Program-made: the position numbers and the translations under genes
The notes under the pieces: model-generated
Databases searched by the model: none
Seen by the model: the letters and a program-made list of their open reading frames with translations, nothing else
What the model was told of the DNA's origin: nothing
Shown here: positions 12,992-34,330 of the stretch, piece by piece
How positions within the stretch are numbered: position 1 is the stretch's first letter
How the letters are laid out: each line of letters starts with the position of its first letter
Assembly: GCA_029248915.1 (NCBI GenBank)
Contig: JAQWIK010000098.1
Location: 1 to 36,244, forward strand
Direction of reading: 5' to 3'
DNA from: Paracoccaceae bacterium
Lineage (GTDB): Bacteria; Pseudomonadota; Alphaproteobacteria; Rhodobacterales; Rhodobacteraceae
Length of the DNA: 36,244 bases

Positions 12992-13009
12992 AATGCAAAC
13001 GATTGCATT
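12992..13009. promoter_or_regulatory. LacI-type operator O1 (OsmC/lacI intergenic)
   Basis: AATGCAAACGATTGCATT is an 18-bp palindrome with one mismatched pair and a central CG step, the form typical of LacI-family operators. It begins one base downstream of the -10 box of the OsmC promoter, so a bound repressor would block the transcription start. Its centre is 54 bases from that of O2. Confidence 0.8.
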
Positions 13010-13010
13010 T

Positions 13011-13039
13011 ATGTTAGCCAAAGTATTAACAGGGGTCAA
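13011..13039 (-). promoter_or_regulatory. Sigma-70-type promoter of the OsmC-led unit
   Basis: On the minus strand, TTGACC (13039-13034), a 17-base spacer and TAACAT (13016-13011) make a good sigma-70 promoter about 40 bases upstream of the OsmC ATG. Operator O1 follows the -10 at once and operator O2 lies just upstream of the -35. Confidence 0.65.
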
Positions 13040-13046
13040 TAGTATT

Positions 13047-13062
13047 GCGCAACCGTTTGCAC
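13047..13062. promoter_or_regulatory. LacI-type operator O2 (overlaps the lacI promoter)
   Basis: GCGCAACCGTTTGCAC matches the O1 pattern with two mismatched pairs and the central CG. It overlaps the likely -35 of lacI (TTGCAC at 13057-13062), which suggests autoregulation. O1 and O2 centres are 54 bases apart, close to five helical turns. Confidence 0.65.
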
Positions 13063-13084
13063 ATCAAGCAGAATCGATTATAAC
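13057..13084 (+). promoter_or_regulatory. Probable promoter of lacI
   Basis: TTGCAC (13057-13062), a 16-base spacer and TATAAC (13079-13084) lie 18 bases upstream of the lacI ATG. The -10 matches five of six consensus bases; the -35 is weaker and lies within operator O2. Confidence 0.5.
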
Positions 13085-13102
13085 CTTTTTTGAAAGGGTG
13101 CT

Positions 13103-14125
13103 ATGAAAAAAAATATAACAATAAAGGATGTAGCTAGAGAGACTGGAGTGCATGTTTCAACGGTTTCAAGAGCTTTGTCAACAGAGGCGAGCAGCTCACT
13201 ATCTAAGAAAGTTGTTGAGCAAATTAGATCTAAAGCAATGGAAATGGGTTACAGGCCAAACCGCGTTGCGTTAGGACTTAGAACAAAGAAAACAATGTCG
13301 GTGGGAGTTATTATTCCTGACATTGGAAACACTATATTCCCACCTATAGTTCGCGGAGTAGAGAGTGTATTGGAACCTGCGGGCTATGCTTCTATTCTTG
13401 TTAATACGGACAGTGACCCAGAAAGAGAAAAACAATTTTTTCAAGTATTACTGGAGCGCGGTGTGGATGGAATTATAGACGCAGCCGTTACTTCAAACGA
13501 TCCAACTGCCGTTAGTTTTTCTTCTGAGCTTCCTATTGTTACGGCCAATCGAATGGCTGTTGGGTCAGGGATTCCTGCTGTTGTTAATGATGACAAAGGA
13601 GGAATTTATTCTATGGTTGATTTACTAGTGAACGCAGGACACCAAAAAATTGGTCATTTGGCGGGCCCATCCCATCTTTACACAGGAATTGCTAGACAAG
13701 AAGCTTTTTCAAGTTCCATGCAAGATAGAGGTATGGAAATACAAAAGGGATCAATAGTTTCTGCCGATGCTTACTCTGAACCTGCGGGAAAAGAAGCAAC
13801 CAATAAAATCTTGGACATATGTCCAAATTTAACAGCTATTCTCTGTGCAAACGATAGATTGGCAATTGGCGCACTAGACGCTATTCATAGTAGAGGCCTG
13901 AAATGTCCAGAAGATGTATCAATTACAGGCTTTAATGATATTCCTTTGTTAGACCGGATTCCCCCCGGCCTTACTACTGTAAAAATCCTACAATTTGATG
14001 TTGGGCGTATAGCAGCGGAAATATTAATTAAAAAGATGAAAGAAAAAAGTGTGCCGGTTCCTGAAACGACTATCATGCCGGTGAGTATTATTGAGCGCGG
14101 CAGTGTTCAATCGCCTAAAGAATGA
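13103..14125 (+). CDS. LacI-family transcriptional regulator
   Basis: This 340-residue DNA-binding regulator begins ITIKDVARETGVHVSTVSRA, the canonical LacI helix-turn-helix, followed by the hinge (GYRPNRVALGLRTKKT). A periplasmic-binding-protein-like ligand domain comes next (SVGVIIPDIGNTIFPPIVRG, GHLAGPS, AILCANDRLAIGAL, SITGFNDIP). ATG 13103 has AAAGGG upstream. It is divergent from the OsmC-led unit and followed after 30 bases by an amidohydrolase gene on the same strand. Operators O1 and O2 lie in its promoter region, and copies of the same palindrome precede at least two other transcription units here, so it is probably the local pathway repressor. The ligand is unknown; despite the family name, sugars need not be the inducer. 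Confidence 0.95.
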   Translation: MKKNITIKDVARETGVHVSTVSRALSTEASSSLSKKVVEQIRSKAMEMGYRPNRVALGLRTKKTMSVGVIIPDIGNTIFPPIVRGVESVLEPAGYASILVNTDSDPEREKQFFQVLLERGVDGIIDAAVTSNDPTAVSFSSELPIVTANRMAVGSGIPAVVNDDKGGIYSMVDLLVNAGHQKIGHLAGPSHLYTGIARQEAFSSSMQDRGMEIQKGSIVSADAYSEPAGKEATNKILDICPNLTAILCANDRLAIGALDAIHSRGLKCPEDVSITGFNDIPLLDRIPPGLTTVKILQFDVGRIAAEILIKKMKEKSVPVPETTIMPVSIIERGSVQSPKE

Positions 14126-14155
14126 ATGGTTTTTACATAACAGGTATTTTAAGAA

Positions 14156-15112
14156 ATGAACAATAAACATAAAATAATCGCAGTAGAAGAGCACTTCATG
14201 CACCCTAGCCTGTCAAATCACCTAGGCCATGCCGCTCAACAGCCTGACCAAATAAAAAAAAGATTATTTGATTTCAGTGATATACGAATTCGTGAAATGG
14301 ATTCTGCTGGTATAGATGTTCAAATACTATCTCATCAATCGCCAGGAAGTCAGCGTCTAAAAAATGAAGTTGCGATCGATGCATGTAAAGATGTTAATAA
14401 TGCTTTAGCTCAGGTCATCAGCAATCATTCTGATAGATTTTTGGGGTTTGCAATGCTGCCCACAAACTTACCTATTGATGCGGCAAGTGAATTGCGAAGG
14501 TCAGTTGAAGAGTTAGGTTTTAAAGGCGCAATGATCCATGGATTGAGTTCGGGAAGAATGGTTGATGAAAAATTCTTTTGGCCAATATTTGCCGAAGCTG
14601 AAAGACTAGATGTCCCTATATACTTACATCCCGCGTTACCGGATAAAGAAGTTACTGAAAGATACTATGCCCCTTATGATGCAAGTCACCCGATGCTAAC
14701 ACGAGCCGCATGGGGTTTTGGAGTAGAGGCCGGAACTCAGGCGATAAGGATGATCCTCTCTGGCATTTTTGATAAACATCCCAATTTAAAAATAATATTA
14801 GGTCATCTTGGTGAAGCAATTCCGTTCTGGCTGCCCAGAATTCAAGAAAGTCTGTCCAGAACAGAAAGTCAGCCAATAAACTTTGAGGATATATTTAAGT
14901 CTAATTTTTGGATTACGACTAGTGGTTTTTTTTCAGACCATGCATTAGAGCTTTGTGTAAACACTCTCAAATTAGATCATATACTGTTCGCCATCGATTG
15001 GCCGTACGCTAATAATGAAACTGGTGTAAATTGGCTACAGAATTCAAAGATAAAACCATCCATAAAATCTGATATTTTTTCTGAAAATGCACAGAACCTG
15101 TTCCGTTTATGA
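14156..15112 (+). CDS. Amidohydrolase-family protein (ACMSD / LigW / gamma-resorcylate-decarboxylase type)
   Basis: This TIM-barrel metal enzyme belongs to the amidohydrolase-2 family, whose members include non-oxidative aromatic acid decarboxylases. Putative metal ligands are Glu11 and His13 (VEEHF), His158 (YLHP), His217 (GHLGE) and Asp281 (AIDWPY). ExH in strand 1, YLHP and DWPY are the combination seen in LigW and dihydroxybenzoate decarboxylases. The 318-residue length fits. It starts 30 bases after the lacI stop and is probably co-transcribed. A decarboxylase or a C-C hydrolase role in the same pathway is likely; hydrolysis of a lactone or amide cannot be excluded. Confidence 0.87.
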   Translation: MNNKHKIIAVEEHFMHPSLSNHLGHAAQQPDQIKKRLFDFSDIRIREMDSAGIDVQILSHQSPGSQRLKNEVAIDACKDVNNALAQVISNHSDRFLGFAMLPTNLPIDAASELRRSVEELGFKGAMIHGLSSGRMVDEKFFWPIFAEAERLDVPIYLHPALPDKEVTERYYAPYDASHPMLTRAAWGFGVEAGTQAIRMILSGIFDKHPNLKIILGHLGEAIPFWLPRIQESLSRTESQPINFEDIFKSNFWITTSGFFSDHALELCVNTLKLDHILFAIDWPYANNETGVNWLQNSKIKPSIKSDIFSENAQNLFRL

Positions 15113-15134
15113 AATTATGAACAAGTAAGAATTT

Positions 15135-16094
15135 TTATTCGTTATTATTTACAACAAATTCTGCCGCCGCATTATTTAAAACAACCTTTTCGATATTTGC
15201 CCAGGATTTCTCAAACAGAGTGCGCCATGCCTGTCGTGATATACCTGCCAGATGAGGTGTAAGTATAATCCGTTGTGCGGCTTTATCATTTAATTTTAAA
15301 AAACAGTTTTGGATTGGTACCGGTTCCTCATAGAATACATCTATGGCGGCTCCCCCTAAATGGTTTTGATTTAATAATTGCACTATGAGTTCTTCAGGTA
15401 CAATACCTCCTCTTGATGCATTTATAAGGATCGCACCGGATTTCAGTAATTTGAGTTCGTTATTTCCAAGTAAATTTTTTGTTTCATCTCTTAAAGGAAC
15501 ATGTACCGAAACAAGATCGGCATCCCTTAAGACATCATTTAATTCACATCCACCTTTCACGAAAGGATCATAAAATTTTACATTTGCACCAAAAAACTCA
15601 AAAGCATCATGTACGGACCTACCAATTTTGCCATACCCAATTATACCTACGGTTAAGCCTGACAGTTGGTTTATGCCTGCAGAAATTATCTCATTTCTCA
15701 AGCTAGAATACTCTCCCTTGATTATGCTCTTTGTACAATAGTTAAAGTTTCGTAATAGAGATAAAGCAACTGACACAACATATTCAGACACGGCACTTGC
15801 TGATCCGCCAGGTATATTTGCAACAGGTATTCCCAGCGCCGATAATTCAGCAACATTTAACCTATCAAATCCGGCTCCAGTTACCTGAATTAACTTTATT
15901 TTGCTACCTTCAAATAAGCTACTGTCTAATTTGCTACCTACCGCTGGAAGAATAATTCCATCTGATTTCAGTATCTCTTGTTTTAACAAAGTGCTAGAAG
16001 CGCCTAACTCCATTACAGTAATATCTTTAGAGGGATAAACATCTAAGTCATAAAAGTCCTTTAGTGGTCTTAGAGAAATTACCTTAGGCATCAT
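15135..16094 (-). CDS. D-2-hydroxyacid dehydrogenase (NAD-dependent)
   Basis: This member of the D-isomer-specific 2-hydroxyacid dehydrogenase family would reduce a 2-oxo acid or oxidise a D-2-hydroxy acid. It shows the substrate-domain VTGAGFDRLN, the Rossmann motif VGIIGYGKIG, and the catalytic Arg in NASRGGIV, Glu in FYEEPVP and His in TPHLAGIS. Length is 319 residues. The start (ATG 16094, or the next codon ATG 16091) overlaps the cupin gene by 11 bases, so it is the last gene of a tightly coupled four-gene unit. It is convergent with the amidohydrolase gene, 22 bases away, with no clear terminator between them. Confidence 0.92.
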   Translation of the reverse strand: MMPKVISLRPLKDFYDLDVYPSKDITVMELGASSTLLKQEILKSDGIILPAVGSKLDSSLFEGSKIKLIQVTGAGFDRLNVAELSALGIPVANIPGGSASAVSEYVVSVALSLLRNFNYCTKSIIKGEYSSLRNEIISAGINQLSGLTVGIIGYGKIGRSVHDAFEFFGANVKFYDPFVKGGCELNDVLRDADLVSVHVPLRDETKNLLGNNELKLLKSGAILINASRGGIVPEELIVQLLNQNHLGGAAIDVFYEEPVPIQNCFLKLNDKAAQRIILTPHLAGISRQAWRTLFEKSWANIEKVVLNNAAAEFVVNNNE

Positions 16095-16461
16095 TCCAAC
16101 TTTCTAGCTCTGTTGTTCCATTTTTGATTTGAGATATTGGAAAGATACAAAAAAGTCTGATTATTTCACCTACATTATTAAAAGTTTGATGAAGAACGCC
16201 GGCAGGGATGCAAACTGTATCCCCCGTAGTTAGTGAAAATTGACCCTGGCTTGTTTTAAGAAAGCCAGAACCTTCTAACACGTAGATTACCTCTTCAAAC
16301 TGGTCATGAAAATGTGGCCCTCGGTCAGAGCTCTCTGGTCCAATCTCCACTATGCGAACTGTAGTAGACTTTGATCCGAATACCTCAGACATCAGTTCGG
16401 TAGAATTACGACCAGGTAAATTAAGCTGAATATTTTTATCCGAATTGACCTTAACAACCAT
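16084..16461 (-). CDS. Small cupin-domain protein
   Basis: This 125-residue single-domain cupin has both cupin motifs. The first is GPHFHDQFEEVIYVLEG, with HxH and Glu. The second is GDTVCIPAGVLHQTFNN, with PxG and His. The four metal ligands of motif 1 and motif 2 are all present. Such proteins act as isomerases, epimerases, lyases or dioxygenases, and the fold does not tell which. Its ATG overlaps the creatininase stop as TAATG and its end overlaps the hydroxyacid dehydrogenase start, so it belongs to the same operon. Confidence 0.9.
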   Translation of the reverse strand: MVVKVNSDKNIQLNLPGRNSTELMSEVFGSKSTTVRIVEIGPESSDRGPHFHDQFEEVIYVLEGSGFLKTSQGQFSLTTGDTVCIPAGVLHQTFNNVGEIIRLFCIFPISQIKNGTTELESWNDA

Positions 16462-17231
16462 TATTTTAGAACTGCTGTTAATTGTTCAAATAATTGTGTT
16501 GTTTCCTTCGCAATATAATCAGCAATTTCGTCCATCATCGCTTTTCCTCTGGTCTCGTTTGCCGGTAGCGGATTTCCGTACCATCCCGAAGGAGCGATAT
16601 CTCGAATATCAGTAAGCACAGGTTGAAAAGCCCTAGTGCGCCGGAGTTTGTCCATATGTTGTCCCTTTGCTTTATCAGACCCCCCAGTTACCCTATCCAG
16701 GTGAACAAGATCTGGTCTAGAGGCCATTACTGCTAACGCCTCAATCTCACCAGCATGAGTTAGGCCGCCGCAGTTATGACCCCATAGTTCTTCCGCCACG
16801 TAGCAGGCCTGGACAACTACTACACGATATCCAACTCTTCGGTGAAGCTCTTCCGCGGCAATGCTGAGAGAGGCAATATTGCCTTCATGCCAATTAACGA
16901 TCATTAGATTTTTAGCACCATGTTTTGCAGCGCTTTCGCAAATCTCTATAATGACCTGTTGGAAGGTCTCTGGCTTTAGGGTTACAGTTGCCTCATAGGG
17001 CATGTGCATCGGTGTGACACCTACAGATGGAGCAGGAAGCACAAGACCATCCATTTTTTTTGCCACGAGCTCGCATACGGTAGTAGCCGCTATTGTGTCT
17101 GTGTTAGCTGGCAGGTGAGCCGAGTGCTGTTCAACTGATCCCGTGGGAAACAATACAAGCGGATTTACCTGCAACTGTTCCTTAATTTCAGGTTGAGTAA
17201 GCTCCGCAAAAAGCCTGGTTTCAAGATTCAT
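16461..17231 (-). CDS. Creatininase-family amidohydrolase
   Basis: This is a creatininase/ArfB/MftE-family metal-dependent hydrolase that opens cyclic amides or cleaves formamides. Metal ligands of the N-terminal motif are visible as Glu34, His36 and Asp45 in PTGSVEQHSAHLPANTDT. Further motifs are NWHEGN (His115, variant of NGHGGN) and THAGEIEAL (Glu162). The 256-residue length fits. ATG 17231 overlaps the oxidoreductase stop as ATGA. The substitution of NGHGGN by NWHEGN suggests a substrate pocket different from typical members. Function within a ring-opening or amide-cleaving step is plausible but unproven. Confidence 0.88.
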   Translation of the reverse strand: MNLETRLFAELTQPEIKEQLQVNPLVLFPTGSVEQHSAHLPANTDTIAATTVCELVAKKMDGLVLPAPSVGVTPMHMPYEATVTLKPETFQQVIIEICESAAKHGAKNLMIVNWHEGNIASLSIAAEELHRRVGYRVVVVQACYVAEELWGHNCGGLTHAGEIEALAVMASRPDLVHLDRVTGGSDKAKGQHMDKLRRTRAFQPVLTDIRDIAPSGWYGNPLPANETRGKAMMDEIADYIAKETTQLFEQLTAVLK

Positions 17232-18286
17232 TTGTTCCTCGCAGATTGCATTACTTCAGATAATTTAACAGAAACCCCATTTTTATCTATTGAGGAGAGA
17301 GCCGCGTAAACACAGGCTACTGCCTCATTCCCATTTGCTGCTGATAAAACTGATGTCTGTCCAGACTTACAGCTTTCTGCAAAAATATCGAGCTCAGCAG
17401 TAAACATATTTGTTTCCGGCTCCGACAGGACCTCCCGTTTTCCAAAGCCATCTTTTCCACGTTGAATGTAAAAAGTAGAGCTGTTTTTTATTTTCTCCGG
17501 TGTGTCCCAAGTGCCAAAGTCAATTTCGTAATGAATTAAAGCCTTTGACCCGAAAACACGGAGAGCAAAAATCCCTGGTGATGTCCAACATGTTCCAATG
17601 TAGGCGATAGCTCCGTCAGAAAACTTCAATAAAGTCATAGATTGATCGTCTACTTCAGCTCCAACAGGAGACAGTTTGGAGGCAATGGATGAGGCCTCCA
17701 CGATAGTTTCGCCAAGATAATTTACAACGTCAAACATATGAATTGCGAGCTGAGATAGTGGCCCGCCCGGTGCACGATCCTTATACCAGCGCCATGTATC
17801 TGGGGTAAGTTCCAATGCTCTTTCATTTGAAAAATTTGCTTCAAAAAATCCAACTTTTCCAAGTTCTCCATTTAAAATTCGCTTTTTAATCTCTTGTACG
17901 CCACCCAGGAGTCGAGCAGAATGGCCAACTGTAACGGTTACCCCGTATTCTTTTTGCAGCTTTTCAATGGCTAAACCGTCTTCTAAATTATGGGCAATAG
18001 GCTTTTCAGTATATACGTGTTTTCCTGCTTTCGCGACTTGGAGAGCAACGGGATAATGTTGTTCATTTGGAACCGTCAAAATAACTCCTTCGATATCATC
18101 TCGAGCAAGTAATTCCTTGAGGGTAGATACAACGGATATACCAGTTTCCGCGGAAAAGTTATCTCTTGTTTCAGGCGATCTACTGAAACCAACAACAATC
18201 TCTACTTTTTCTGACAACGTACAAGCACGGGTTAGGACTCTTGCCCAACGGCCCAGGCCAACTATTCCAACTCTTACTTTTTTCAT
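17228..18286 (-). CDS. Gfo/Idh/MocA-family NAD(P)-dependent oxidoreductase
   Basis: This Rossmann-fold dehydrogenase, commonly acting on sugars, inositols or other polyols, begins VRVGIVGLGRWARVLTRA and carries the family EKPIAHN motif (catalytic Lys). GPLSQLAIHMFDVVNYL supplies the conserved His/Asp region. I start at ATG 18286, which has GGAG 8 bases upstream; the open frame extends to 18352, but that would run through the promoter and palindrome. About 352 residues. It heads a four-gene unit with creatininase, cupin and hydroxyacid dehydrogenase, all coupled by short overlaps. The substrate is unknown. Confidence 0.92.
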   Translation of the reverse strand: MKKVRVGIVGLGRWARVLTRACTLSEKVEIVVGFSRSPETRDNFSAETGISVVSTLKELLARDDIEGVILTVPNEQHYPVALQVAKAGKHVYTEKPIAHNLEDGLAIEKLQKEYGVTVTVGHSARLLGGVQEIKKRILNGELGKVGFFEANFSNERALELTPDTWRWYKDRAPGGPLSQLAIHMFDVVNYLGETIVEASSIASKLSPVGAEVDDQSMTLLKFSDGAIAYIGTCWTSPGIFALRVFGSKALIHYEIDFGTWDTPEKIKNSSTFYIQRGKDGFGKREVLSEPETNMFTAELDIFAESCKSGQTSVLSAANGNEAVACVYAALSSIDKNGVSVKLSEVMQSARNK

Positions 18287-18333
18287 GTAGATATCTCCAA
18301 TACTAAAGTTTCTCAGACTAAAATTATTTATCT

Positions 18334-18349
18334 GTATACAATTGTATAC
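18334..18349. promoter_or_regulatory. Perfect 16-bp palindromic operator (GntR-like)
   Basis: GTATACAATTGTATAC is its own reverse complement. It covers the -10 box of the promoter for the oxidoreductase-led unit, so it is well placed as a repressor site. TTGTATAC-type palindromes are often bound by GntR-family regulators, but no GntR gene is in the window. It does not resemble the LacI-type operators. Confidence 0.75.
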
Positions 18350-18369
18350 CAACGTATATAAAAGGTCAA
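18341..18369 (-). promoter_or_regulatory. Sigma-70-type promoter of the oxidoreductase-led unit
   Basis: On the minus strand, TTGACC (18369-18364), a 17-base spacer and TACAAT (18346-18341) match consensus at five of six bases in each box. The -10 lies inside the 16-bp palindrome, about 55 bases upstream of the ATG. Confidence 0.7.
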
Positions 18370-18384
18370 AGTTTCGCTTTGTTT

Positions 18385-19293
18385 TTATTTGAGATTAAGT
18401 TTATCCTTTAACCATTGGATAACGAACTTAATAGCTTTCTGCTGTACATCGTTAATAATATAATTACCGTCTTCACCGCGAATTGGAAAAATATACCCAT
18501 GGTAATTATGGTCGTAAGAAATCCACTCAGCGTTATGGCCTCCTTCTACTAATAGATCGTATGATGTTCTAAAAATACCTTGTAAGTGATCTTCATCCCT
18601 ACCCATCACGAGAATAGGAGTTTTGATACTTTCAATCCTTTTCTCTGCCAAAGGTAAGTCTATTCGATTTCTAACCTTTATTACCTCTGCCATTTGCATT
18701 TCTTCAATGTTACGCAAACCAGTTTTCTCGTTAATAAATGCACTATCATCGGGCTTTAATGCAAGAAATTCATGGCTAGCAGGTTCACTTGCAATAGCTG
18801 CTGCTAGACCGTCATATTCTGAAGTTATTTTCAGAACCATTTCACCACCATGGCTCATACCTATCATTGATATGCGATCCTCATCTACCCATGGTACAGA
18901 TTTAAAGTAATCAGAGATGGCAATTTGGTCTTCATACTCTAAAGGGCTGCGATTGAACATTTCTCTGCCTTGCCTCACGTCGCGGATTAAGCTTCCACCA
19001 CTATTATAACCTAGCTCGACCTCAGTTCGATATCTGGTCCAAGCACACGCAAAACCCGCTTCAATTAATCTATCAATTGTATAGGCCTTATTTTTCATCG
19101 CATCTCGTATCCAAGACATACCCTCACCGCCATTCCCGGAAGCCAATAAAACCATTGGAAAAGGCCCACTGCCCTCCGGTTTACGAACTCCAACTGGGGT
19201 GTATAATCCATCCCACACTTCTATCATCATGAGACTGACAGGATGCCCGTTCACGTTTTCAGTCAGAATTATATTCTCCGGATCAATTTCCAT
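18385..19293 (-). CDS. Alpha/beta hydrolase (dienelactone-hydrolase / S9-like)
   Basis: This is a 302-residue serine hydrolase with nucleophile Ser147 in GMSHGG. The acid is probably Asp233 or Asp235 (MGRDEDHLQG) and the base His262 or His265 (YDHNYHGY). An oxyanion-type LLASGNGGEG segment lies near 49-58. It has no signal peptide, so it acts in the cytoplasm. ATG 19293 has AAGGAG upstream and overlaps the second ABC ATPase gene by 11 bases, which makes it the last gene of the importer operon. That placement suggests it hydrolyses the imported solute or its first product. It is not closely similar in build to the two long C-C-type hydrolases, as it lacks their helical N-terminal extension. 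Confidence 0.85.
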   Translation of the reverse strand: MEIDPENIILTENVNGHPVSLMMIEVWDGLYTPVGVRKPEGSGPFPMVLLASGNGGEGMSWIRDAMKNKAYTIDRLIEAGFACAWTRYRTEVELGYNSGGSLIRDVRQGREMFNRSPLEYEDQIAISDYFKSVPWVDEDRISMIGMSHGGEMVLKITSEYDGLAAAIASEPASHEFLALKPDDSAFINEKTGLRNIEEMQMAEVIKVRNRIDLPLAEKRIESIKTPILVMGRDEDHLQGIFRTSYDLLVEGGHNAEWISYDHNYHGYIFPIRGEDGNYIINDVQQKAIKFVIQWLKDKLNLK

Positions 19294-20548
19294 AATGAGC
19301 TCCTTTTGAAACTTCTTCAGGACTCAAGACACATGCAGATTGTCGGTGCCCGAGGCTCTTTAGTGCAACTTCCTTTACTTCTTTAAATGCTAATTCAACT
19401 TTTTCATTATTAAGATTTAATTTGATAAAACTTTGCCTCATAGCCAGTGGCAATTTTTCAGATCTAGCGGAGGCAATTAAGTTTGCTGCGGCACCTTCAC
19501 TTGAAAATGTTAATACGGCTGAGAACTCAGATTTCCGCTCAACCCCGACTAATTCCTCAAACATCCCAGGAGTATCTTCTAACCACCTAATAACATCATC
19601 AACTTCCCAACCACAATCTGGTGTCGCCATCACGCATCGTGTATGAAATCGACAACCTTGGGGAGGTCTTGCGGGATCTGGAATTAAACCCTCTAATCCT
19701 ATAGCATTCTCAGAATTTGCTTTGTCTAAATCAGGTTTTGCAGAAATTAAGGCCTTGGTATAAGGATGATGTGGAGCATCGAAGATATCCTTTGTTGAAC
19801 CAGCCTCAACGACCTTACCTAAGTACATTACAACAATATCATCTGCCATATGCCTGACAACATTTAAATCGTGAGTTATAAAAATATATGCAAGATTTCG
19901 TGCTTTCTGAATATCACTTAACAAGTTTAAAATTTGCGCTTGCACCGAAACATCCAAAGCTGATGTGGGCTCATCCAAAACGATAATTTCTGGATTTAAT
20001 GCAATAGCACGTGCAATCGAAATTCTCTGTCTTTGCCCTCCGGAAAATTGATGTGGATATCGGTAAAGGTGCTCACGCCCTAAACCAACTTGTTCCAATA
20101 AAGTTACAACTCGATCAAGTAGGTCTGCACCTGTAGCTTCTTTGTAAACCTTAAGGGGGCGCCCAACAATGTCTGCTACCAAATGACGAGGGTTTAAAGA
20201 AGCAAAACTGTCTTGAAATACCATTTGACAATTACGTCGAAAATTTCGCAGTGGAATATTCTTAAGTTCATCAATTCTGTTGAATTTTTCTTCACCACCG
20301 TATAGAACCCCGCCAGATGTAGGATCATTGAGCCCTGAAATAAGCCGCCCTAAAGTTGTCTTTCCACACCCACTTTCTCCCACAATTCCTAGAGTTTTAC
20401 CACGTTTTAACTGTAAGCTTACACCGTCTACTGCACGCACAGACCCGACAATCCTCTGCAAAGCCCCTTCTCTAATTGGATAATGCTTTTTAACTTCCTC
20501 AACAGAAAGGATGAGGTCGTCTGAATAATTTTTTTGTGAATCTTTCAT
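19283..20548 (-). CDS. Peptide-type ABC importer ATPase (DppF/OppF-like) with an extended C-terminal domain
   Basis: This is the second ATPase of the importer. Walker A is GESGCGKT (57-64), signature FSGGQRQR (168-175), Walker B IIVLDEPT (188-195), then THDL. The C-terminal oligo_HPY region starts normally (GCRFHTRC at 298-305, then PDCGW). It then carries about 90 extra residues (313-401) before the final SACVLSPEE, which resembles the usual closing cysteine segment. At 421 residues it is well above the usual 320-330. Its start overlaps the DppD-like gene as ATGA. The ATPase role is certain and the substrate is not. Confidence 0.93.
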   Translation of the reverse strand: MKDSQKNYSDDLILSVEEVKKHYPIREGALQRIVGSVRAVDGVSLQLKRGKTLGIVGESGCGKTTLGRLISGLNDPTSGGVLYGGEEKFNRIDELKNIPLRNFRRNCQMVFQDSFASLNPRHLVADIVGRPLKVYKEATGADLLDRVVTLLEQVGLGREHLYRYPHQFSGGQRQRISIARAIALNPEIIVLDEPTSALDVSVQAQILNLLSDIQKARNLAYIFITHDLNVVRHMADDIVVMYLGKVVEAGSTKDIFDAPHHPYTKALISAKPDLDKANSENAIGLEGLIPDPARPPQGCRFHTRCVMATPDCGWEVDDVIRWLEDTPGMFEELVGVERKSEFSAVLTFSSEGAAANLIASARSEKLPLAMRQSFIKLNLNNEKVELAFKEVKEVALKSLGHRQSACVLSPEEVSKGAHYGN

Positions 20549-23723: not shown

Positions 23724-23734
23724 ATCTACCTCAT

Positions 23735-23764: not shown

Positions 23765-23780
23765 TTATTAGTTTAAAATT

Positions 23781-28316: not shown

Positions 28317-28329
28317 CTTTAAATACTCT

Positions 28330-28341
28330 GCAAACGTTTGC
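28330..28341. promoter_or_regulatory. LacI-type operator at the flavoprotein gene (perfect palindrome)
   Basis: GCAAACGTTTGC is a perfect 12-bp palindrome with a central CG, the ideal form of O1 and O2. It lies between the promoter -10 and the ATG at 28316, in the same position relative to the -10 as O1 in the OsmC promoter. Confidence 0.8.
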
Positions 28342-28345
28342 TTCG

Positions 28346-28373
28346 ATATTATATCTCCACAACAATGAGTCAA
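28346..28373 (-). promoter_or_regulatory. Probable promoter of the flavoprotein gene
   Basis: On the minus strand TTGACT (28373-28368) is followed after 16 bases by TAATAT (28351-28346). TATAAT at 28353-28348 gives a better box but only a 14-base spacer. The operator begins five bases downstream. Confidence 0.55.
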
Positions 28374-28516: not shown

Positions 28517-29326
28517 TTAATTTTTAGAATTTTTAAACTCCATAACAATATGATCATTAGTGCCTTTCCCCTTTACGAGTTTGGGAAATTGATGGGACAG
28601 TCTACTGCCATGATAAAAACTTACTTTGCTGGATTTCCTATTTTGTGCGTTTTTTAACCAATCGACAATCAATGGATAGCCTGTCCTCCAAAGAGCATCA
28701 AAACCTAAATCTTCCAGACGATCTACTGTAGGAAGTATCGCCATATCTCCGATAGTATAATCTTTTCCGAACAACCACGGTCCTCCAAATCTCATGAGCA
28801 ATAACTCCATGCGTTTGAAAGACCGCTCTAATACGTTGAAGGAATTGTAAATTTCACTTTTGGGAAATCCAGTATCTTTATCAAAAGAATTATAGAACTC
28901 GATTTTTAGTGGACGCTTACTTTTTAGGTTCTCAAAGGCGTCATGGCTCATAATTTTGAATTTTTCCCGCAATCCTCCATATTGAAATGACGGTACTCGG
29001 ACCGCCGGTGCTGGCCAGACGTCTACAAAAATTAACCAAGCCCTCAATTGGCTGCATAAAAACGGGTCCTTTGGACGAAAGGTATGCTGCGTATACTTGT
29101 CTTCCAAATATTCCAGTATCGCTGTTGACTCGAAAATAGCTTTTTCATCATCTACTAAGGTCGGAACTACACCATTCGGATTAAGCTTAAGATACCATTC
29201 AGACAAATGATGATTTTCTGATGAAATTAAACATCTGTCTACCCATGGAAGTTCCTTTTCTGCGAGTAACAGTCTGACCTTAATACTGCACGTTGATTGA
29301 GAAAAGTTATATAACTCGATCGACAT
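28517..29326 (-). CDS. Glutathione S-transferase family protein
   Basis: The N-terminal thioredoxin-fold domain starts IELYNFSQSTCSIKVRLLL, with Ser11/Thr12/Cys13 at the catalytic site, and carries NPNGVVPTLV with ESTAILEYLEDKY for glutathione binding. The C-terminal helical domain has FGKDYTIGDMAILPT. Length is 269 residues. It resembles the GST at 10725-11486 in the STCS motif and the overall build, so the two are likely paralogues with related substrates. It is the last gene of the GSH unit, 27 bases after the second GST gene. Reductive dehalogenase or beta-etherase-like chemistry is conceivable but not shown. Confidence 0.9.
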   Translation of the reverse strand: MSIELYNFSQSTCSIKVRLLLAEKELPWVDRCLISSENHHLSEWYLKLNPNGVVPTLVDDEKAIFESTAILEYLEDKYTQHTFRPKDPFLCSQLRAWLIFVDVWPAPAVRVPSFQYGGLREKFKIMSHDAFENLKSKRPLKIEFYNSFDKDTGFPKSEIYNSFNVLERSFKRMELLLMRFGGPWLFGKDYTIGDMAILPTVDRLEDLGFDALWRTGYPLIVDWLKNAQNRKSSKVSFYHGSRLSHQFPKLVKGKGTNDHIVMEFKNSKN

Positions 29327-29353
29327 AATTGTTAACTTTCATAAAAAGCTGGC

Positions 29354-30157
29354 TTATTTTTCTACAGATTCCCATAAGGATTTTATTTGTTCAAAGGCCG
29401 CCTGTCCTTCCTTTTGTCTTTTCTTGGCTGTTACATCTCCCCAGTCATCTACTGCTGTTTTGTAAGCACTACGAGCTTTGATTTTATCAAACCATGCCCG
29501 TAAATGATTTAAGTTCTGCCAGAGAGGCGCCATTTGGAATGACGTCATTCTGGTTAAGTATACGACTAAGGAAATGTCAGCGATTGAGTAATCGTCACCA
29601 GATAACCAGGGAGTTAACGCAAGCTGCTTATCCATATCCTCAAATAACCTTCTAAAGGTAGTAAGAGATGGTTTTAAAAGAGGTGAATCAAGGCCTAATT
29701 CAATATTGATTTGATCATTATTTTTTCGCGTTTGATCACGCATTTTTTTGTAATAATCTTTAAGCTTCGATTTATCTGCTTCTTTGTAGATGAAACGGTT
29801 TACGATACAAACTCCTATTGTTCGGCTAGCCACATGCACCCCATCATCAATGCGACGCATCCATAGGCGCATTGTAGCCCGTTCCTGAGGAGCGGATGGA
29901 GTAAGGCATAAATGATCTGGAAATGCCTCCTCTAAATACTCGAGAATTAATGTCGATTCCGGTAGAGCAAATCCGTCATGAACTAACAACGGTATAAGAC
30001 CTTTAGGATTTAATTTATGAAATCCATCTGGTCTTTTGCTAGCATCGCCCATGGCAGTATCAACTATTACACTATTCCATTCGATTTTTTTCTCGTCCAA
30101 TCCAAGGCGTACTCTTTGTGCCGCAGTAGATCTGTCGTAATGATATAAGGTCAACAT
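29354..30157 (-). CDS. Glutathione S-transferase family protein
   Basis: This GST of 267 residues begins LTLYHYDRSTAAQRVRLGL, with Ser10/Thr11 at the catalytic position and no Cys, and has NPKGLIPLLV plus PESTLILEYLEEAF. The C-terminal domain includes LSGDDYSIADISLV. Its first domain resembles GST subfamilies with Ser or Thr catalysis, unlike its neighbour with Cys. The ATG overlaps the upstream hydroquinone-reductase stop by one base (TAATG), so the two are coupled. The substrate is unknown. Confidence 0.9.
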   Translation of the reverse strand: MLTLYHYDRSTAAQRVRLGLDEKKIEWNSVIVDTAMGDASKRPDGFHKLNPKGLIPLLVHDGFALPESTLILEYLEEAFPDHLCLTPSAPQERATMRLWMRRIDDGVHVASRTIGVCIVNRFIYKEADKSKLKDYYKKMRDQTRKNNDQINIELGLDSPLLKPSLTTFRRLFEDMDKQLALTPWLSGDDYSIADISLVVYLTRMTSFQMAPLWQNLNHLRAWFDKIKARSAYKTAVDDWGDVTAKKRQKEGQAAFEQIKSLWESVEK

Positions 30158-31116
30158 TATATTTTTTTTCCGTTGCTATTTACCAAAAGCTTTTTCAGGC
30201 CAACAGGAATTATACCATAAGGATTAATTCTTAAATGAGACAAGTAGTAATGGTCAATAATGTGATCCTCAAATACAGTAGTCTTTACCTTAGGAAAATC
30301 TAAAAGCCGATACAGGTATTTGGAAATATTTTTATAACTTTCCAATTTTCTCAAATTACATTTGAAATGGTAGTAGTAGACTGTATCAAATCGAACCAAA
30401 GTTGTGAACAAACGCCAGTCACACTCACAAACCCTATCACCTAGTAAATAATCAGATTGGGCTAATATATCTTCCAATTTATCTAACGTTTGAAATAGAA
30501 GTTTCACACTATTGTCATACGCAGTTTGACTAGTTGCAAAGCCAACACGGTAAACACCATTGTTAAGTCCTTTATACACAAAACCATTCATTTGATCAAT
30601 TTCTGTGAGAGGATAACCTCCGAACATTTGGCCAGATCTTTGTCCATTTAATTCGCAAAAAGGACCATCAAGCATTCTAATAATCTCAGATGACTCGTTA
30701 TTTACTATAGTTTGCGTTTTTTTATCCCATAAAGTAGGTACGGTCACTTTTCCAGTAAACTCATGGTCAATAGAAAGGTACAGGTCTCTTAGGAAATCTA
30801 TATCTAGACCAGTATCATTGGACACATCTTTGAAATTTTCAAAAGTCCAGCCATTCGGATAACTGATTGGGTTAACGACCGAAATATCTATGATTTTTTC
30901 TAGATTTAAAATTGCTCGATATAGTAAGGTTCTATGCGCCCAAGGGCATGCATGGGATACAATAAGGTTATATCTATCTTTTTCAGCAGGAAACTTTCCA
31001 GAGTTTGGGGCAGTAATGAAATCTCTGTAAGGTGACTCTGCCCTTATAAAGCTACCGTCTGGAGCAGTTGTCCCTTTTGCATCAGGATCCCAACTGCCAT
31101 TTATCAACATAGCCAT
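30157..31116 (-). CDS. Glutathionyl-hydroquinone reductase-like protein (YqjG/PcpF/ECM4 family)
   Basis: This omega/xi-class GST, at 319 residues, is near the normal length of the family that reduces glutathionyl-hydroquinones back to hydroquinone and GSSG. The signature is LIVSHACPWAHRTLLYRA with the catalytic Cys57. IVNNESSEIIRML near the middle and the C-terminal ISKYLYRLLDFPKVK and DHYYLSHLRINPYGIIPVG segments match the family. The start is ATG 31116, or ATG 31110 two codons in. It lies immediately downstream of a terminator, so it may have its own promoter, which I cannot identify. Its presence suggests quinone or hydroquinone intermediates conjugated with glutathione. Confidence 0.92.
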   Translation of the reverse strand: MAMLINGSWDPDAKGTTAPDGSFIRAESPYRDFITAPNSGKFPAEKDRYNLIVSHACPWAHRTLLYRAILNLEKIIDISVVNPISYPNGWTFENFKDVSNDTGLDIDFLRDLYLSIDHEFTGKVTVPTLWDKKTQTIVNNESSEIIRMLDGPFCELNGQRSGQMFGGYPLTEIDQMNGFVYKGLNNGVYRVGFATSQTAYDNSVKLLFQTLDKLEDILAQSDYLLGDRVCECDWRLFTTLVRFDTVYYYHFKCNLRKLESYKNISKYLYRLLDFPKVKTTVFEDHIIDHYYLSHLRINPYGIIPVGLKKLLVNSNGKKI

Positions 31117-31159
31117 AATTATACTTTCAATATTGAATTCGAAATGTACAAAGAAAGAA

Positions 31160-31189
31160 AATCGGGGTCAAACTACTTTGACCCCGATT
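31160..31189 (-). terminator. Rho-independent terminator of the NMT1-type ABC operon
   Basis: AATCGGGGTCAAA and TTTGACCCCGATT form a perfect 13-bp stem with a 4-base loop. On the minus-strand transcript it is followed by TTTTCTTTCTTT (with one further T from the stem). It starts 20 bases after the binding-protein stop. Confidence 0.9.
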
Positions 31190-31208
31190 ATTAGAAGTGA
31201 AGTTAATC

Positions 31209-32273
31209 TTAAGCAGGCCTACGTGGAATACCCAGTGCATCTTGAGCTGCATGTAAGAAGCGCAGGTCGACTGCATCGCGCCAATCAAAATCTGATGGAA
31301 CTTGACCCAAGTCCCTAACCCCTTGAGCAAAGCTGTCCATCGATGCTTCTGTAAAACCACCATCTTTACAAATCTGGTTCAATTCAGTTTCGTATTGGGC
31401 CTCAAACTCAGGTGGAATATCAAAACCTTTAGACCGCATTTCAGCATATGCTGACTCCTTGTTAGCTGGATCGTGCAACCACTGACGTGCTTTCAACTCA
31501 GCATATTGCCATGCATATAATGCATCTTCATTCTTTGCACCCCACTCCATGTTGGTGATGAAGCCTTCTTGTGGCACTTCTTTAATATTGGCAGATATAA
31601 ATTTTCCGCCATTGTCAGTTAAACCTTTTTCATGACGCGGAAACACTGATCCACCCTGTAAAACGCCAGCTATGATAGCTTTCATCCGTCCATCTGACCC
31701 ACCTTTCATAGGAACCATTTCTACATCACTATCTGGGTTTATACCGTTCTCTTTTAAAATTTCACGTTGGATCCATGTGTTTCTTCCACCCAGTCCTCCA
31801 CCTGATATTTTACCGCCTTTGAGGTCATCAAAGGTATCAATTCCTTCACCAACCCCCATTATCCACCATTCTTTATCACGATACACACTCAATAGTTTTA
31901 GTGGTGCACCACTAGCAGCTGCAGACCCAAATAATACATCGACATCAGAATGAGCAATGTCCAAACTTCCACCAATCAAGCCTGGAAAGTAAGTATCTGT
32001 AAGATAAAACTCTATTTCATCTATGCCCGCAGTTTCATAAAAGCCTTTAAACTGCGCCAGTCTCCACGACCATTGAGCTGCATAATTTGGGTTCCAGTCC
32101 GCCATACGAATTTTACTTACATTAGATTGAACCGCCGCTGAATCCATAGCAAATGCGCCCTTGAAAGGTAACGCGGACGCCCCAATCGCCATTCCTAGCG
32201 CACCCATAGAACCTGAAAGTAAGACCTCTCTTCTGGGTAATAGAATCTGTGTTTTTTGTCGTTTTAGTGCCAT
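31209..32273 (-). CDS. NMT1/THI5-like ABC substrate-binding protein (nitrate/sulfonate/taurine type)
   Basis: This periplasmic binding protein has a twin-arginine signal (RREVLLSG followed by a hydrophobic stretch and AFA cleavage site near residue 42), so it is probably Tat-exported. The 354-residue mature fold shows the SsuA/NMT1-like pattern: DWNPNYAAQWSW, AHSDVDVLFG, GGGLGGRNTWIQREILKENG and MKGGSDGRMKAIIAGVLQGG. Many NMT1-type binders accept sulfonates, pyrimidine precursors or aromatics. ATG 32273 has GGGAGG upstream. It is the last gene of its operon, followed by a strong terminator. The substrate cannot be assigned. Confidence 0.92.
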   Translation of the reverse strand: MALKRQKTQILLPRREVLLSGSMGALGMAIGASALPFKGAFAMDSAAVQSNVSKIRMADWNPNYAAQWSWRLAQFKGFYETAGIDEIEFYLTDTYFPGLIGGSLDIAHSDVDVLFGSAAASGAPLKLLSVYRDKEWWIMGVGEGIDTFDDLKGGKISGGGLGGRNTWIQREILKENGINPDSDVEMVPMKGGSDGRMKAIIAGVLQGGSVFPRHEKGLTDNGGKFISANIKEVPQEGFITNMEWGAKNEDALYAWQYAELKARQWLHDPANKESAYAEMRSKGFDIPPEFEAQYETELNQICKDGGFTEASMDSFAQGVRDLGQVPSDFDWRDAVDLRFLHAAQDALGIPRRPA

Positions 32274-32309
32274 TTTTTCCTCCCTTTGGAATTGTGAATT
32301 AAACTCACT

Positions 32310-33191
32310 CTAAAGATGGTTAACGTTTCGCCACGGAGCAACATAAGCCTCTAGCCATCTGGTGAAATTTATCAATGATAATGACATCACGATAAGTAAC
32401 AATAAAACAGCAAAGGTCATTGCGGTATTAAACGTATCCGCGGATCTTTGAATGAGGAATCCCAAACCGTTCGAACCACCAAACAATTCAGCAATAACCA
32501 CCCCAATCAATCCCCTTCCAATACCCTGTTGGATACCAGAAATAATAAATGGTAGAGTATATGGCAGCACTACTTTTACATATAGCTGCCTTCTATTTGC
32601 ACCAAAAACGCGCGCGGCTGCTAGTAACGACTTCTCAGTAGTTTTCACACCAGCCCAAGCATTAATCATAATTGGAAAAACTGCAGAAATAACAATAATC
32701 GTTACCTGCATCGTTGTTGTAAAACCGAGAAACAATATAAATAGTGGCACCAGAGCTATTCTTGGCAAAGAAGCTAATGCCCAGACATAAGGGCTCAAAA
32801 TCGCTTCAATATATTTATTTCCACCCATCAATAAGCCTCCTGGAATGCCAATCAGGCAAGCTATAGCAAGGCCGAACATCAGATTATTAAAGCTATGTAG
32901 GAAATGATCTAAAATACTTCCGGAAAAGACAGCGCCTTCAGGCGCACGAGTTGTCAATCCAACCCATAACTCGGCAAACATATCAGATGCTTTTGGCAAA
33001 AATAATGGGTTAATATCACCATAAATTGTAAAAACTTCCCATAGAATAAAAAATGTGATGAGATTGAGTGTAGTAACTACAAGGCCTCGAGTACGCCTCC
33101 AAACCTCCTTAAAAGTCCAACCTAGATCTTGAATTCTATCTGGATCATCAGTGTCAAATTGTTGAAGAGATTTATTTTTTGTAGCCACCAT
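32310..33191 (-). CDS. ABC importer permease (SsuC/TauC-like)
   Basis: This is an inner-membrane BPD_transp_1-type permease with about six helices. The EAA-type cytoplasmic loop is KSLLAAARVFGANRRQL with the conserved Gly, followed by LPYTLPFIISGIQQGIGRGL, the SsuC/TauC pattern. The start at ATG 33191 follows GAGGAG by a good distance; the GTG at 33197 overlaps the ATPase stop but is too close to the ribosome binding site. It should be about 293 residues. It forms the pore for the binding protein encoded next. Confidence 0.93.
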   Translation of the reverse strand: MVATKNKSLQQFDTDDPDRIQDLGWTFKEVWRRTRGLVVTTLNLITFFILWEVFTIYGDINPLFLPKASDMFAELWVGLTTRAPEGAVFSGSILDHFLHSFNNLMFGLAIACLIGIPGGLLMGGNKYIEAILSPYVWALASLPRIALVPLFILFLGFTTTMQVTIIVISAVFPIMINAWAGVKTTEKSLLAAARVFGANRRQLYVKVVLPYTLPFIISGIQQGIGRGLIGVVIAELFGGSNGLGFLIQRSADTFNTAMTFAVLLLLIVMSLSLINFTRWLEAYVAPWRNVNHL

Positions 33192-33193
33192 TC

Positions 33194-34003
33194 TCACTCT
33201 CCTCTATTAGTTTGTGAGGCCTCATCTTTAACTAAATTCCAAATATGATCACGAAGCTGCGCGTATTCTTTTGAAGTTTTAACCTCAGAATTACTCATCC
33301 GAGGTCTCGGAAAGTTTACGTTAACAATTTCTTTTACTTTTCCAGGCCGATATGAAATTACAACCACCCTATCTCCCAGCAAAATAGCTTCATCGATGGA
33401 ATGGGTTATGAATACACATGTTTGACCAGTCTCCATCACAATTCTTTCCATTTCAGCTTGCATTGCTTCTCTGGTCATAGCGTCAATTGCAGCAAATGGT
33501 TCATCAGCTAGAAGTATATCGGGATGTGTAATTAATGCCCTAGCTATTCCAACCCTTTGCTTCATCCCCCCAGATAATTCATAAGGAAAGGATTTCTCAA
33601 AACCCGTCAAATCAACTAAGCTCAAGCATTCCTTAACACGTCTAGCTTTTTCATCATCAGAAATTCCTAAATCTTGAAATTCGAACGGCATTCTCACATT
33701 CGACTCCACGGTTCGCCAAGGCAGAAGTGCATAATCTTGGAAGACCATCGCCCGATCCGGTCCAGGTCCAGTAACTTCCTGCCCTCTCACGGTCACACTG
33801 CCACTAGCTTTTGGAACTAGACCTGAGATAGCGTTAATAAAACTTGTCTTACCACAACCCGAAGGTCCTACCAAAACCACAAACTCTCCAGGAGCTACCT
33901 CTAAGCTAATATCCTGCAAAGCGACTAACTTTTTTCTTTCGCGATGCAGTTCATAAGCGATAGTCAAATCATTAGCCACAATGATTGGATTTTTGTTATT
34001 CAT
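33194..34003 (-). CDS. ABC importer ATPase (SsuB/TauB/NrtD-like)
   Basis: The ATPase has Walker A GPSGCGKTS, Q-loop VFQDYALLPWRTV, signature LSGGMKQR, Walker B ILLADEPF and the H-loop FITHSIDEA, all in the SsuB/TauB subtype pattern. At 269 residues the size is normal. It is the first gene of the three-gene NMT1-type importer. A LacI-type operator lies at 34051-34066, about 50 bases upstream of its start. It supplies energy for the uptake of a sulfonate-, nitrate- or aromatic-like solute. Confidence 0.95.
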   Translation of the reverse strand: MNNKNPIIVANDLTIAYELHRERKKLVALQDISLEVAPGEFVVLVGPSGCGKTSFINAISGLVPKASGSVTVRGQEVTGPGPDRAMVFQDYALLPWRTVESNVRMPFEFQDLGISDDEKARRVKECLSLVDLTGFEKSFPYELSGGMKQRVGIARALITHPDILLADEPFAAIDAMTREAMQAEMERIVMETGQTCVFITHSIDEAILLGDRVVVISYRPGKVKEIVNVNFPRPRMSNSEVKTSKEYAQLRDHIWNLVKDEASQTNRGE

Positions 34004-34330
34004 CCCAAACCACTTTCTACATTTCTTGTTTAATAAGCACCTAAGTTATTATGCGAACGTTTGCATTAGCTAAACTATTAACACTATAAAACATACGACG
34101 CAGTCAAGAAAAAAAAGAAAAAACACAATTTTAGATAATAGCACTACAAGTGCTAATTGAGTGTAAAACCTAACAAAGCTTGATTATACAGTGTTTTTCA
34201 AATCGAAAAATTGGAAACATTTAAAAAAATGCACTCTATAATGATCACCCTTTTAATAATAAAAGGTGGCAAATAAATCAACAGCTTCACAGATCCTAAT
34301 AATAATCATAGACGAAATAATAATAGCGGT
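34004..34330. other. 327-base intergenic region with operator and hairpins
   Basis: It lies between the TauE-type gene and the NMT1-type ABC operon, both on the minus strand. It holds the LacI-type operator (34051-34066), a 7-bp stem TAGCACT/AGTGCTA (34139-34155) and an AT-rich hairpin CCTTTTA/TAAAAGG near 34247-34265. Neither hairpin has a clean U-tract. TTGACT at 34107-34102 is a possible -35, but no -10 lies at the usual distance. No reading frame of interest is seen. Confidence 0.5.
34051..34066. promoter_or_regulatory. LacI-type operator upstream of the NMT1-type ABC operon
   Basis: ATGCGAACGTTTGCAT is a 16-bp palindrome with one mismatched pair and the central CG of O1. It lies 48 bases upstream of the ATPase ATG, a normal place for a repressor site. 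Confidence 0.7.

Follow-up and report, generated by a model that had tools for sequence, protein, structure and literature searches.

According to Ravcheev et al. (2014; PMC4052901), local regulons of LacI-family regulators combine an even 16-bp palindrome with a central CG, a site at the regulator's own promoter, clustering of the regulator with its targets and tandem operators at a divergent promoter. All of these are found, the operators as in silico sites, in the locus described here, which lies in a window of 36,244 nucleotides (the whole stretch of DNA that was analyzed) from an apparently marine Paracoccaceae bacterium. The even palindrome with a central CG is true of most, not all, LacI-family operators; clustering and autoregulation mark a regulon as local. 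The locus differs from the local regulons of that study in size, with about 32 genes in six transcription units (counted under operon assumptions) against at most 20 genes in 93% of the regulons described, in the spacing of operator pairs (53–57 bp against peaks at 13, 22, and 32 bp), and in the absence of a clear sugar pathway. We consider it very probable that the palindromes are operators of the LacI-type protein encoded at 13103-14125, defining an autoregulated local regulon that is repressed by promoter occlusion. No description of this regulon was found among the best matches listed in the open PMC literature.

The regulator (340 aa, plus strand) contains an HTH and a periplasmic-binding-protein-like effector domain (PF00356, 39.1 bits with a cut-off of 27; PF13377, 109.5; PF00532, 92.4). 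This domain make-up is shared with repressors of the PurR/CcpA/RbsR class, and the best PDB relatives of the regulator are CcpA chains. The ccpA, RbsR, CytR, and PurR models of NCBIfam match it, all with scores far below the curated cut-offs (e.g. 198.7 of 442 for ccpA). Its recognition helix region reads VHVSTVSRAL, with recognition residues that we take to differ from those of PurR and CcpA. LacI-family matches in the window genome number just three; one paralogue, on contig C100, has a different helix (VSEMTVSRVL), and the other is on C37.

The β-aryl-ether (Lig) pathway of Sphingobium and Novosphingobium, in which LigG plays the deglutathionylating part, is under LysR/MarR-type control, in contrast to the LacI-type regulator of the window. 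LigF is the best PDB match of the three glutathione S-transferases (GSTs) in the window, a YqjG-type reductase homologue could take the part of LigG, and a relative of 5-carboxyvanillate decarboxylases is present as well. The similarity is, however, only moderate: the NCBIfam β-etherase model NF042997 gave 28.7 of 440 bits on GST2, which leaves it outside the curated family, and had no match on GST1 (E ≤ 0.001) or GST0. No SDR or extradiol-dioxygenase match was obtained among the 34 window proteins scanned, and no ring-cleaving dioxygenase was identified among these 34 of the 46 window ORFs.

The 12-mer core GCAAACGTTTGC occurs exactly at 28330-28341, with one mismatch at 12995-13006, 13049-13060, and 34053-34064, and with two mismatches at 25505-25516. 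Five sites result in the 16-bp frame ATGCAAACGTTTGCAT, and when the window was ranked with a matrix built from sites of relatives, these were exactly its top five: OD of the osmC operon (ATGCAAACGATTGCAT, 12993-13008, 24.5 bits), the site ahead of the NMT1 operon (ATGCGAACGTTTGCAT, 34051-34066, 22.2 bits), OU (GCGCAACCGTTTGCAC, 13047-13062, 21.5 bits), the site with the perfect 12-mer (28328-28343, 20.1 bits) and a weaker operator between the SBP5 (minus) and FrsA2 (plus) genes (ATGCAATCGTTTTCTT, 25503-25518, 15.8 bits). The next match scored 11.1 bits. All palindromes reported in an earlier note (12992-13009, 13047-13062, 28330-28341, 34051-34066, and a weaker one at 25503-25518) are thus present. 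Its statement that a perfect 12-bp palindrome stands just after a -10 box twice applies to 28330, whereas the site at 12993 has one asymmetric pair. Matrix positions 8 and 9 are C and G at 95% each.

The matrix used 33 of 50 site rows from relatives and is not fully independent of the window, since the rows were first found with a window-derived consensus. The 17 rows left out were G001 5465; G005 15369 and 19072; G223 3784; G136 7163 and 9726; G430 16526 and 16624; G196 6321; G378 12219; G395 8333; G014 223; G002 C28 9115 and 17180 and C64 1706; G164 14002; and G421 14592. Most of these lie inside genes or away from orthologues of the window, or are near-copies of G001 sites; G196 6321 (at lacI), G395 8333, and G430 16526 could have stayed.

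An independent-base model expects 0.004 matrix matches per window at 20.1 bits or more and 0.049 at 15.8 bits or more; at 13 bits or more, a first-order Markov model expects somewhat more (0.29 versus 0.19). The scanned genome comprises 2.02 Mb (90% complete), of which the window makes up 1.8%. With up to one mismatch the 12-mer has 10 genomic sites, four of them in the window (binomial probability about 2e-5), while the other six are all inside ORFs of 186–563 aa; the reversed control gave four sites genome-wide. The 16-mer at up to three mismatches gave 20 sites against five for the control pattern, with six in the window, two of which (7111, 24073) are inside genes. In the related genome G029, the same search hardly exceeded its control (20 versus 15). 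At up to three mismatches the 12-mer occurs 18 times in the window against an expectation of 17.4, which is no enrichment, and we drew no evidence from this count; a degenerate 15-mer, allowing a single mismatch, was rejected as a discriminator because it matched in 76 of 121 relatives. Thus, only strict forms of the pattern discriminate. The strict sites bear out the view that the palindromes are unlikely to be due to chance.

OD lies directly 3' of the -10 of a promoter-like pair for the osmC operon (TTGACC-17-TAACAT, 13011-13039, minus strand), over the expected transcription start. OU is 54 bp from OD and just upstream of the osmC -35, so that the pair brackets this promoter, and OU would overlap the lacI -35. 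The flavoprotein gene has a similar pair (TTGACT-16-TAATAT, ending at 28346), with the operator directly 3' of the -10. Both pairs scored 9/12, and neither is rare by itself in shuffled sequence (means of 0.5 for 13011 and 0.7 for 28346). The same scan found no promoter-like pair at 34051; by eye, TTGAC is kept there in four genomes, with a poor -10 that lies at a greater distance from the operator. Mechanical TTG-start ORFs (12467-13039 and 26739-28373) cover two operator sites. It is likely that the genes start at about ATG 12970 and ATG 28316, downstream of the sites, since the lengths aligned with G001 (162/190 and 525/544 residues) fit these starts; in G121 and G122 the flavoprotein alignment (536/544) extends across the operator.

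The osmC operon (273-12970, minus strand, 12 genes as judged from strand and gaps) encodes OsmC, a β-hydroxyacid dehydrogenase, GST0, an FrsA-like hydrolase, an M24 enzyme, E1 alpha, E1 beta, a lipoyl protein, an aldehyde dehydrogenase, an E2 catalytic domain, and the small and large XDH subunits. Assignment of the M24 enzyme as the DMSP lyase DddP was rejected (111.9 bits with a cut-off of 600, NCBIfam NF043017). Downstream of lacI, an Amidohydrolase_2 protein (14156-15112, plus) is related to γ-resorcylate decarboxylase (3s4t, 7.9e-57) and 5-carboxyvanillate decarboxylase (4icm, 2.4e-51). A putative Opp-type ABC transporter operon of 10 genes (15135-25484, minus) encodes SBP5, OppB, C, D, and F, an S9-like hydrolase, a GFO/IDH/MocA protein, a creatininase-family protein, a cupin, and a D-2-hydroxyacid dehydrogenase. 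FrsA2, an FrsA/Ayg1-like α/β hydrolase gene (25596-26732, plus), is divergent from SBP5, and the flavoprotein is a CrtO/phytoene-desaturase-like FAD oxidoreductase (26739-28316, minus). The NMT1-type ABC transporter genes (28517-34003, minus) probably form one operon, judging from the gaps, in the order ATPase, permease, SBP, glutathionyl-hydroquinone-reductase homologue, and two LigF-like GSTs. The site at 34051 does not cover the TauE genes (34331-35916), which are upstream of it.

The same promoters carry sites in four related genomes (G121, G122, G001, G005). In OD, 13 consecutive columns are invariant in five genomes; the site at 25503 has 14 invariant consecutive columns in 5/5 genomes aligned, the site at 28328 is present in 5/5, and that at 34051 is identical at 16/16 bases in 4/4. 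In G001 and G005 the GFO operon and a LigF-like GST gene are relocated with the operator GCGCAATCGTTTGCAT between them, and the second lacI operator has decayed (8.8 and 1.2 bits). Of 16 genus genomes, five contain the strict pattern ATGCRAACGWTYGCR, in each case solely on contigs with cluster genes, and the other 11 do not, absences that are soft as the genus genomes are 53–96% complete. In these 11 the LacI matches are absent or just 30–33% identical, and the NMT1 binding protein is absent at the same completeness; in G005 and G014 sites are present and an NMT1 match is absent. Records of the same identity were counted once (G155 taken as G121/L036; L038 as G001; L039 as G005). According to the earlier note, a motif common in unrelated DNA, or a lack of sites upstream of orthologues, would speak against a regulon. 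Both were examined, and the regulon withstood them: elsewhere in the genome strict matches are rare and fall within ORFs, and sites stand upstream of orthologous operons, relocated transcription units included.

The regulator belongs to a clade of 22 of 47 tree rows, a label set chosen before tree building, which falls on one side of a branch with support 100/98. Its recognition helix is nearly constant, and members bear the operator at their own promoter as far as Rhizobiales. A second matrix (21 sites of five close genomes, window included) was applied solely to other genomes, at 19 distant loci (15 from family genomes and four selected among 220 matching plasmid records). In 14 of them, a site of at least 16.9 bits was located within about 350 bp of lacI on its upstream side, and the best match of the whole locus was upstream of lacI in 13 (12 of the 14, and G145 at 12.1 bits). 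With about 0.2 kb of upstream DNA each, G145 and G130 (11.5 bits) had weak sites and G229 none; G164 and G421, which are outside the clade (36–37% identity, altered helix), had no lacI sites. Sites at lacI also occur in loci with a GC content of 0.57–0.70. Operator pairs were compared at 18 of 24 LacI loci (all except G145, G130, G229, G395, G164, and G421); they mostly bracket a TTGAC promoter, and TTGAC is retained in 16 of the 18.

GST0 was the commonest partner of the regulator (15/22 loci). Two rhizobial loci join the regulator and GST0 with an intradiol (catechol-type) dioxygenase and a β-keto acid cleavage enzyme (BKACE). These loci, of Shinella sp. HZN7 and Rhizobium sp. T136, share with the window the LacI clade, the helix, paired operators, and a GST0 orthologue (64–66%), whereas a branched-chain-type ABC importer and dioxygenase/BKACE genes replace the marine set. 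S. chiapasense, whose record lists no genes, also has GST0, which was not found in the stretch of RAC02 examined. In Phaeobacter, Pacificitalea, and Tritonibacter, an M24-E1-lipoyl-ALDH-E2 module is located beside sugar ABC genes, in stretches showing no LacI annotation and no good site (best 12.0 bits); the module is therefore shared and does not identify the pathway.

In the mechanism we propose, a LacI dimer would recognize about ATGC(A/G)A(A/T)CG(A/T)T(T/C)GCAT, and in its ligand-free form would repress the six units by occupying the start region 3' of the -10. At the divergent lacI/osmC promoter, OU may additionally cover the lacI -35 and thereby cause autorepression, and an intermediate derived from the imported compound would serve as the inducer that releases LacI. 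The predicted regulon comprises two ABC importers, three GSTs, the glutathionyl-hydroquinone-reductase homologue, hydrolases, dehydrogenases, a 2-oxoacid dehydrogenase set, and a molybdenum hydroxylase. In silico, these data support the earlier proposal that one LacI-type protein controls uptake and catabolism together.

That the palindromes are chance features of AT-rich intergenic DNA is hardly credible. The loose count does equal expectation; against chance stand the genomic rarity of strict sites, the matrix ranking, the distant loci, including those of high GC, and the pair architecture, and footprinting across the aligned genomes already contradicts it. A second reading, which we rate as very unlikely, accepts the operators but assigns them to a different member of the LacI family (a paralogue, or a global regulator such as GapR) and leaves the local LacI as a mere neighbor. 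In its favor, even palindromes with a central CG are general among LacI-family regulators, all 13 Rhodobacteraceae of one study were reported to have GapR (PMC4052901), and two other LacI-family proteins are encoded in the genome. The sites, however, are found at this lacI's own promoter and track its clade into Rhizobiales despite differing gene content, the helix of the C100 paralogue differs, and the 11 genus genomes without an orthologue are also without strict sites. The published GapR is a global regulator that has a 20-bp motif and for the most part does not cluster with its targets (PMC4052901); here the targets are clustered and a LacI match at E ≤ 1e-60 was found in just 17 of 394 family genomes (two of them outside the clade; up to five candidates scored per genome), so that identity with GapR was rejected. 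Activation instead of repression at some operons is improbable: OU, just upstream of the -35, would suit an activator, whereas an operator immediately 3' of the -10, as at osmC and the flavoprotein gene, would normally prevent initiation.

The LigF-like GSTs, the glutathionyl-hydroquinone-reductase homologue, and the decarboxylase relative point, by sequence similarity, to aromatic (ether) catabolism, which is unusual for LacI regulators. Our leading candidate for the substrate class, with nearly an even chance of being right, is an aromatic compound handled through glutathione conjugates, e.g. an aryl ether. Tentatively, this LacI clade of Rhodobacterales and Rhizobiales may have left sugars to sense an aromatic or glutathione-conjugated intermediate, and may serve as master switch for the glutathione-dependent breakdown of aryl ethers, its two operators forming a fixed clamp round the target promoter. 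It is also quite conceivable, if short of probable, that a real regulon serves the ordinary use of a sugar, cyclitol, or glycoside and responds to a sugar effector, the GSTs and the decarboxylase relative handling a side group or by-product. The GFO/IDH/MocA, IolN/creatininase-type, and cupin genes look sugar- or cyclitol-related, a classical sugar effector fits them as well, and 2-hydroxyacid dehydrogenase and Opp genes accompany them; among LacI-TF groups that have been assigned a pathway, 96% control the metabolism of carbohydrates (PMC4052901). Yet the GFO, creatininase-family, cupin, and 2-hydroxyacid dehydrogenase genes occur in just 4–5 of 22 loci (several incomplete), far fewer than GST0, and the gene content of the two rhizobial loci also speaks against a sugar pathway. 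The idea that the sites define pathway membership holds for predicted co-regulation; that all 32 genes serve a single pathway is our presumption.

An uncharacterized stretch of a small Rhodobacteraceae genome is thus turned into a defined set of genes predicted to be co-regulated, with a predicted operator code that holds across two orders. The substrate may be approached through GST0, the most constant partner, and through those rhizobial loci that encode an intradiol dioxygenase. Should the effector prove aromatic, a family whose described members deal almost solely with carbohydrates and nucleosides would gain a non-sugar branch, and the regulator would mark a catabolic route of marine bacteria that depends on glutathione.

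The palindromes described in the earlier note, predicted operators of the LacI-family protein encoded at 13103-14125 (+), are all present in the window sequence: 12993-13008 and 13047-13062 between lacI and osmC, a weaker one at 25503-25518, 28328-28343 at the flavoprotein gene and 34051-34066 at the NMT1-type operon. The window spans contig C98 completely; the genome comprises 2.02 Mb in 113 contigs, and the GC content of the window is 0.40. Its nearest named relatives, Rhodobacteraceae/Paracoccaceae and 'Alphaproteobacteria' bins and single-cell-type assemblies, are presumably marine. A loose count of the core 12-mer in the window was at chance level (18 found vs 17.4 expected). When at most one mismatch was allowed, 10 sites were found genome-wide, four of them in the window, and a control pattern gave 4; each of the six sites outside the window lies inside an ORF of 186-563 aa. 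The extended 16-base palindrome with at most two mismatches occurs four times in the genome, three times in the window and once, at C96:5472, inside a 563-aa ORF. In this genome scan strict matches are rare outside the window, and there all of them are inside ORFs. Scoring with a matrix of 33 sites from relatives ranked the five sites as the top five in the window, the next match being 4.7 bits lower.

The lacI gene and a decarboxylase-like amidohydrolase gene are on the + strand, whereas the - strand carries the osmC operon (12 genes), the Opp operon (10 genes), the flavoprotein gene and the NMT1-type ABC operon, which continues into a YqjG-type glutathionyl-hydroquinone-reductase homologue and two glutathione transferases (GSTs). 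The gene for an FrsA-like hydrolase, FrsA2 (25596-26732), is divergent from the Opp operon. The cluster was found in genomes G121 and G122 (LacI 77% identical), G001 (63%) and G005 (61%), again with operators at lacI/osmC and between FrsA2 and the first Opp gene, and also ahead of the flavoprotein gene and the NMT1 operon; where Opp genes are missing, the FrsA2-type site adjoins an S9-like hydrolase instead. In alignments of the upstream regions the operators form conserved islands: across five genomes, runs of 13 columns at lacI/osmC and of 14 at the weak site 25503 are invariant, and at the NMT1 operon 16 of 16 bases are identical in four genomes, the G005 contig stopping before this operon. 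Sites upstream of orthologous operons were likewise found where genes had moved: the GFO operon and a LigF-like GST gene are both relocated in G001 and G005, with one common operator between them, an arrangement also seen in G002. The strict pattern was detected in 5 of 16 genus genomes, with all 14 strand-hits on contigs carrying cluster genes; with looser patterns the contrast between genomes disappears. Two TauE/SafE-type exporters (34331-35916) lie upstream of the NMT1 operon, where operator 34051 would not serve them, and G001, G002, G121 and G122 each have one or more of them in this position. Such exporters would be in keeping with a by-product that is sulfite or some other anion.

A LacI match at E<=1e-60 was present in 17 of 394 family genomes. 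In a 47-row tree, 22 orthologue rows (family-genome orthologues, four rhizobial plasmid homologues and close relatives) form one side of a branch with support 100/98, and 17 of them share the recognition residues VHVSTVSRAL; the exceptions are VHVAT (G265), VDVST (G378), FHVST (G130, G229) and VHPST (G395). With a matrix from the sites of five close genomes, 14 of 19 distant loci (7-31 kb each) showed a site of at least 16.9 bits upstream of lacI. The locus-wide best match was upstream of lacI in 13, namely 12 of these 14 and G145 at 12.1 bits; the sites at lacI are weak in G145 and G130. The scan gave no site upstream of lacI in G229, G164 and G421, of which the latter two fall outside the LacI clade. 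A perfect ATGCAAACGTTTGCAT palindrome was also seen at G085:C70:1617-1632, in an alphaproteobacterium of another family.

Eighteen operator pairs, from 24 loci, are spaced 53-57 bp; one (G430) sits at a dehydrogenase gene rather than adjoining lacI, and in G001 and G005 the upstream operator is decayed. TTGAC directly follows the upstream operator in 16 of the 18 pairs, and the downstream operator starts where the -10, judged by eye and not scored, would end. These positions indicate that the pair brackets a promoter reading away from lacI. In our reading, the upstream operator would also overlap a lacI -35 of sequence TTGCAC, which is followed by a TATAAC-like -10; the promoter scan did not report this pair. 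The regulator would thus repress by occluding the two divergent promoters, those of lacI and osmC. In G430 (locus L105), a strong operator (16526-16541, 23.8 bits) precedes genes for the small and large XDH subunits of a molybdenum hydroxylase about 6 kb from lacI, suggesting that this enzyme joined the regulon separately there.

Within the osmC operon, 2875-9539 forms a cassette of E2, aldehyde dehydrogenase, lipoyl, E1 beta, E1 alpha and M24 genes. The 2-oxoacid dehydrogenase appears to have its E2 component divided over two proteins, one with the lipoyl domain (5210-6202) and one with the catalytic domain (2875-3633); the gene for the aldehyde dehydrogenase separates the two, and the order is identical to that on a Phaeobacter plasmid. 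The cassette also occurs on plasmids of Pacificitalea and Tritonibacter (M24 protein 84-91% identical across the three genera), where its neighbours are sugar ABC and SDR genes, with ThuA genes in two of the three stretches viewed; no LacI is annotated beside it in these three. Among the proteins of the osmC operon, M24 shows the highest conservation (94-96% in four close relatives); it is similar to DddP but scores well under the DddP cut-off.

The most constant partner of lacI is the GST of the osmC operon, GST0 (10725-11486), present in 15 of 22 loci with 61-78% identity outside the window. Five of the seven loci that lack it (G223, G196, G145, G130, G229) end less than 4 kb from lacI on one side; G395 and the rhizobial plasmid locus RAC02 lack it although their stretches do not end close to lacI. 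A beta-hydroxyacid dehydrogenase is present in 11 and a decarboxylase relative in 10 of the 22. LigF is the best PDB match of GST0 and of both GSTs behind the NMT1 genes (GST1, GST2), yet none of the three passes the curated beta-etherase model. Two rhizobial loci, those of Shinella sp. HZN7 and Rhizobium sp. T136, have the same regulator near GST0, a beta-keto acid cleavage enzyme and an intradiol dioxygenase, the last with a Pfam score of 147.8 bits for the Shinella protein. The constancy of GST0, the LigF matches and these rhizobial neighbours together favour the breakdown of an aromatic compound, perhaps an aryl ether, by a route linked to glutathione. A sugar pathway behind the regulon is also plausible, as the Opp operon carries sugar-type genes and LacI regulators are biased to sugars in PMC4052901, in whose main text a search for 'aromatic' gave 0 matches.

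The earlier note's finding of one shared operator was right, and has more support than the sequence alone gave; judged from sequence comparison, it makes a good prediction of a local regulon. The predicted regulon is unusual for its size, for the GST gene that keeps recurring beside lacI, for a promoter bracketed by two operators and for an effector that may not be a sugar.
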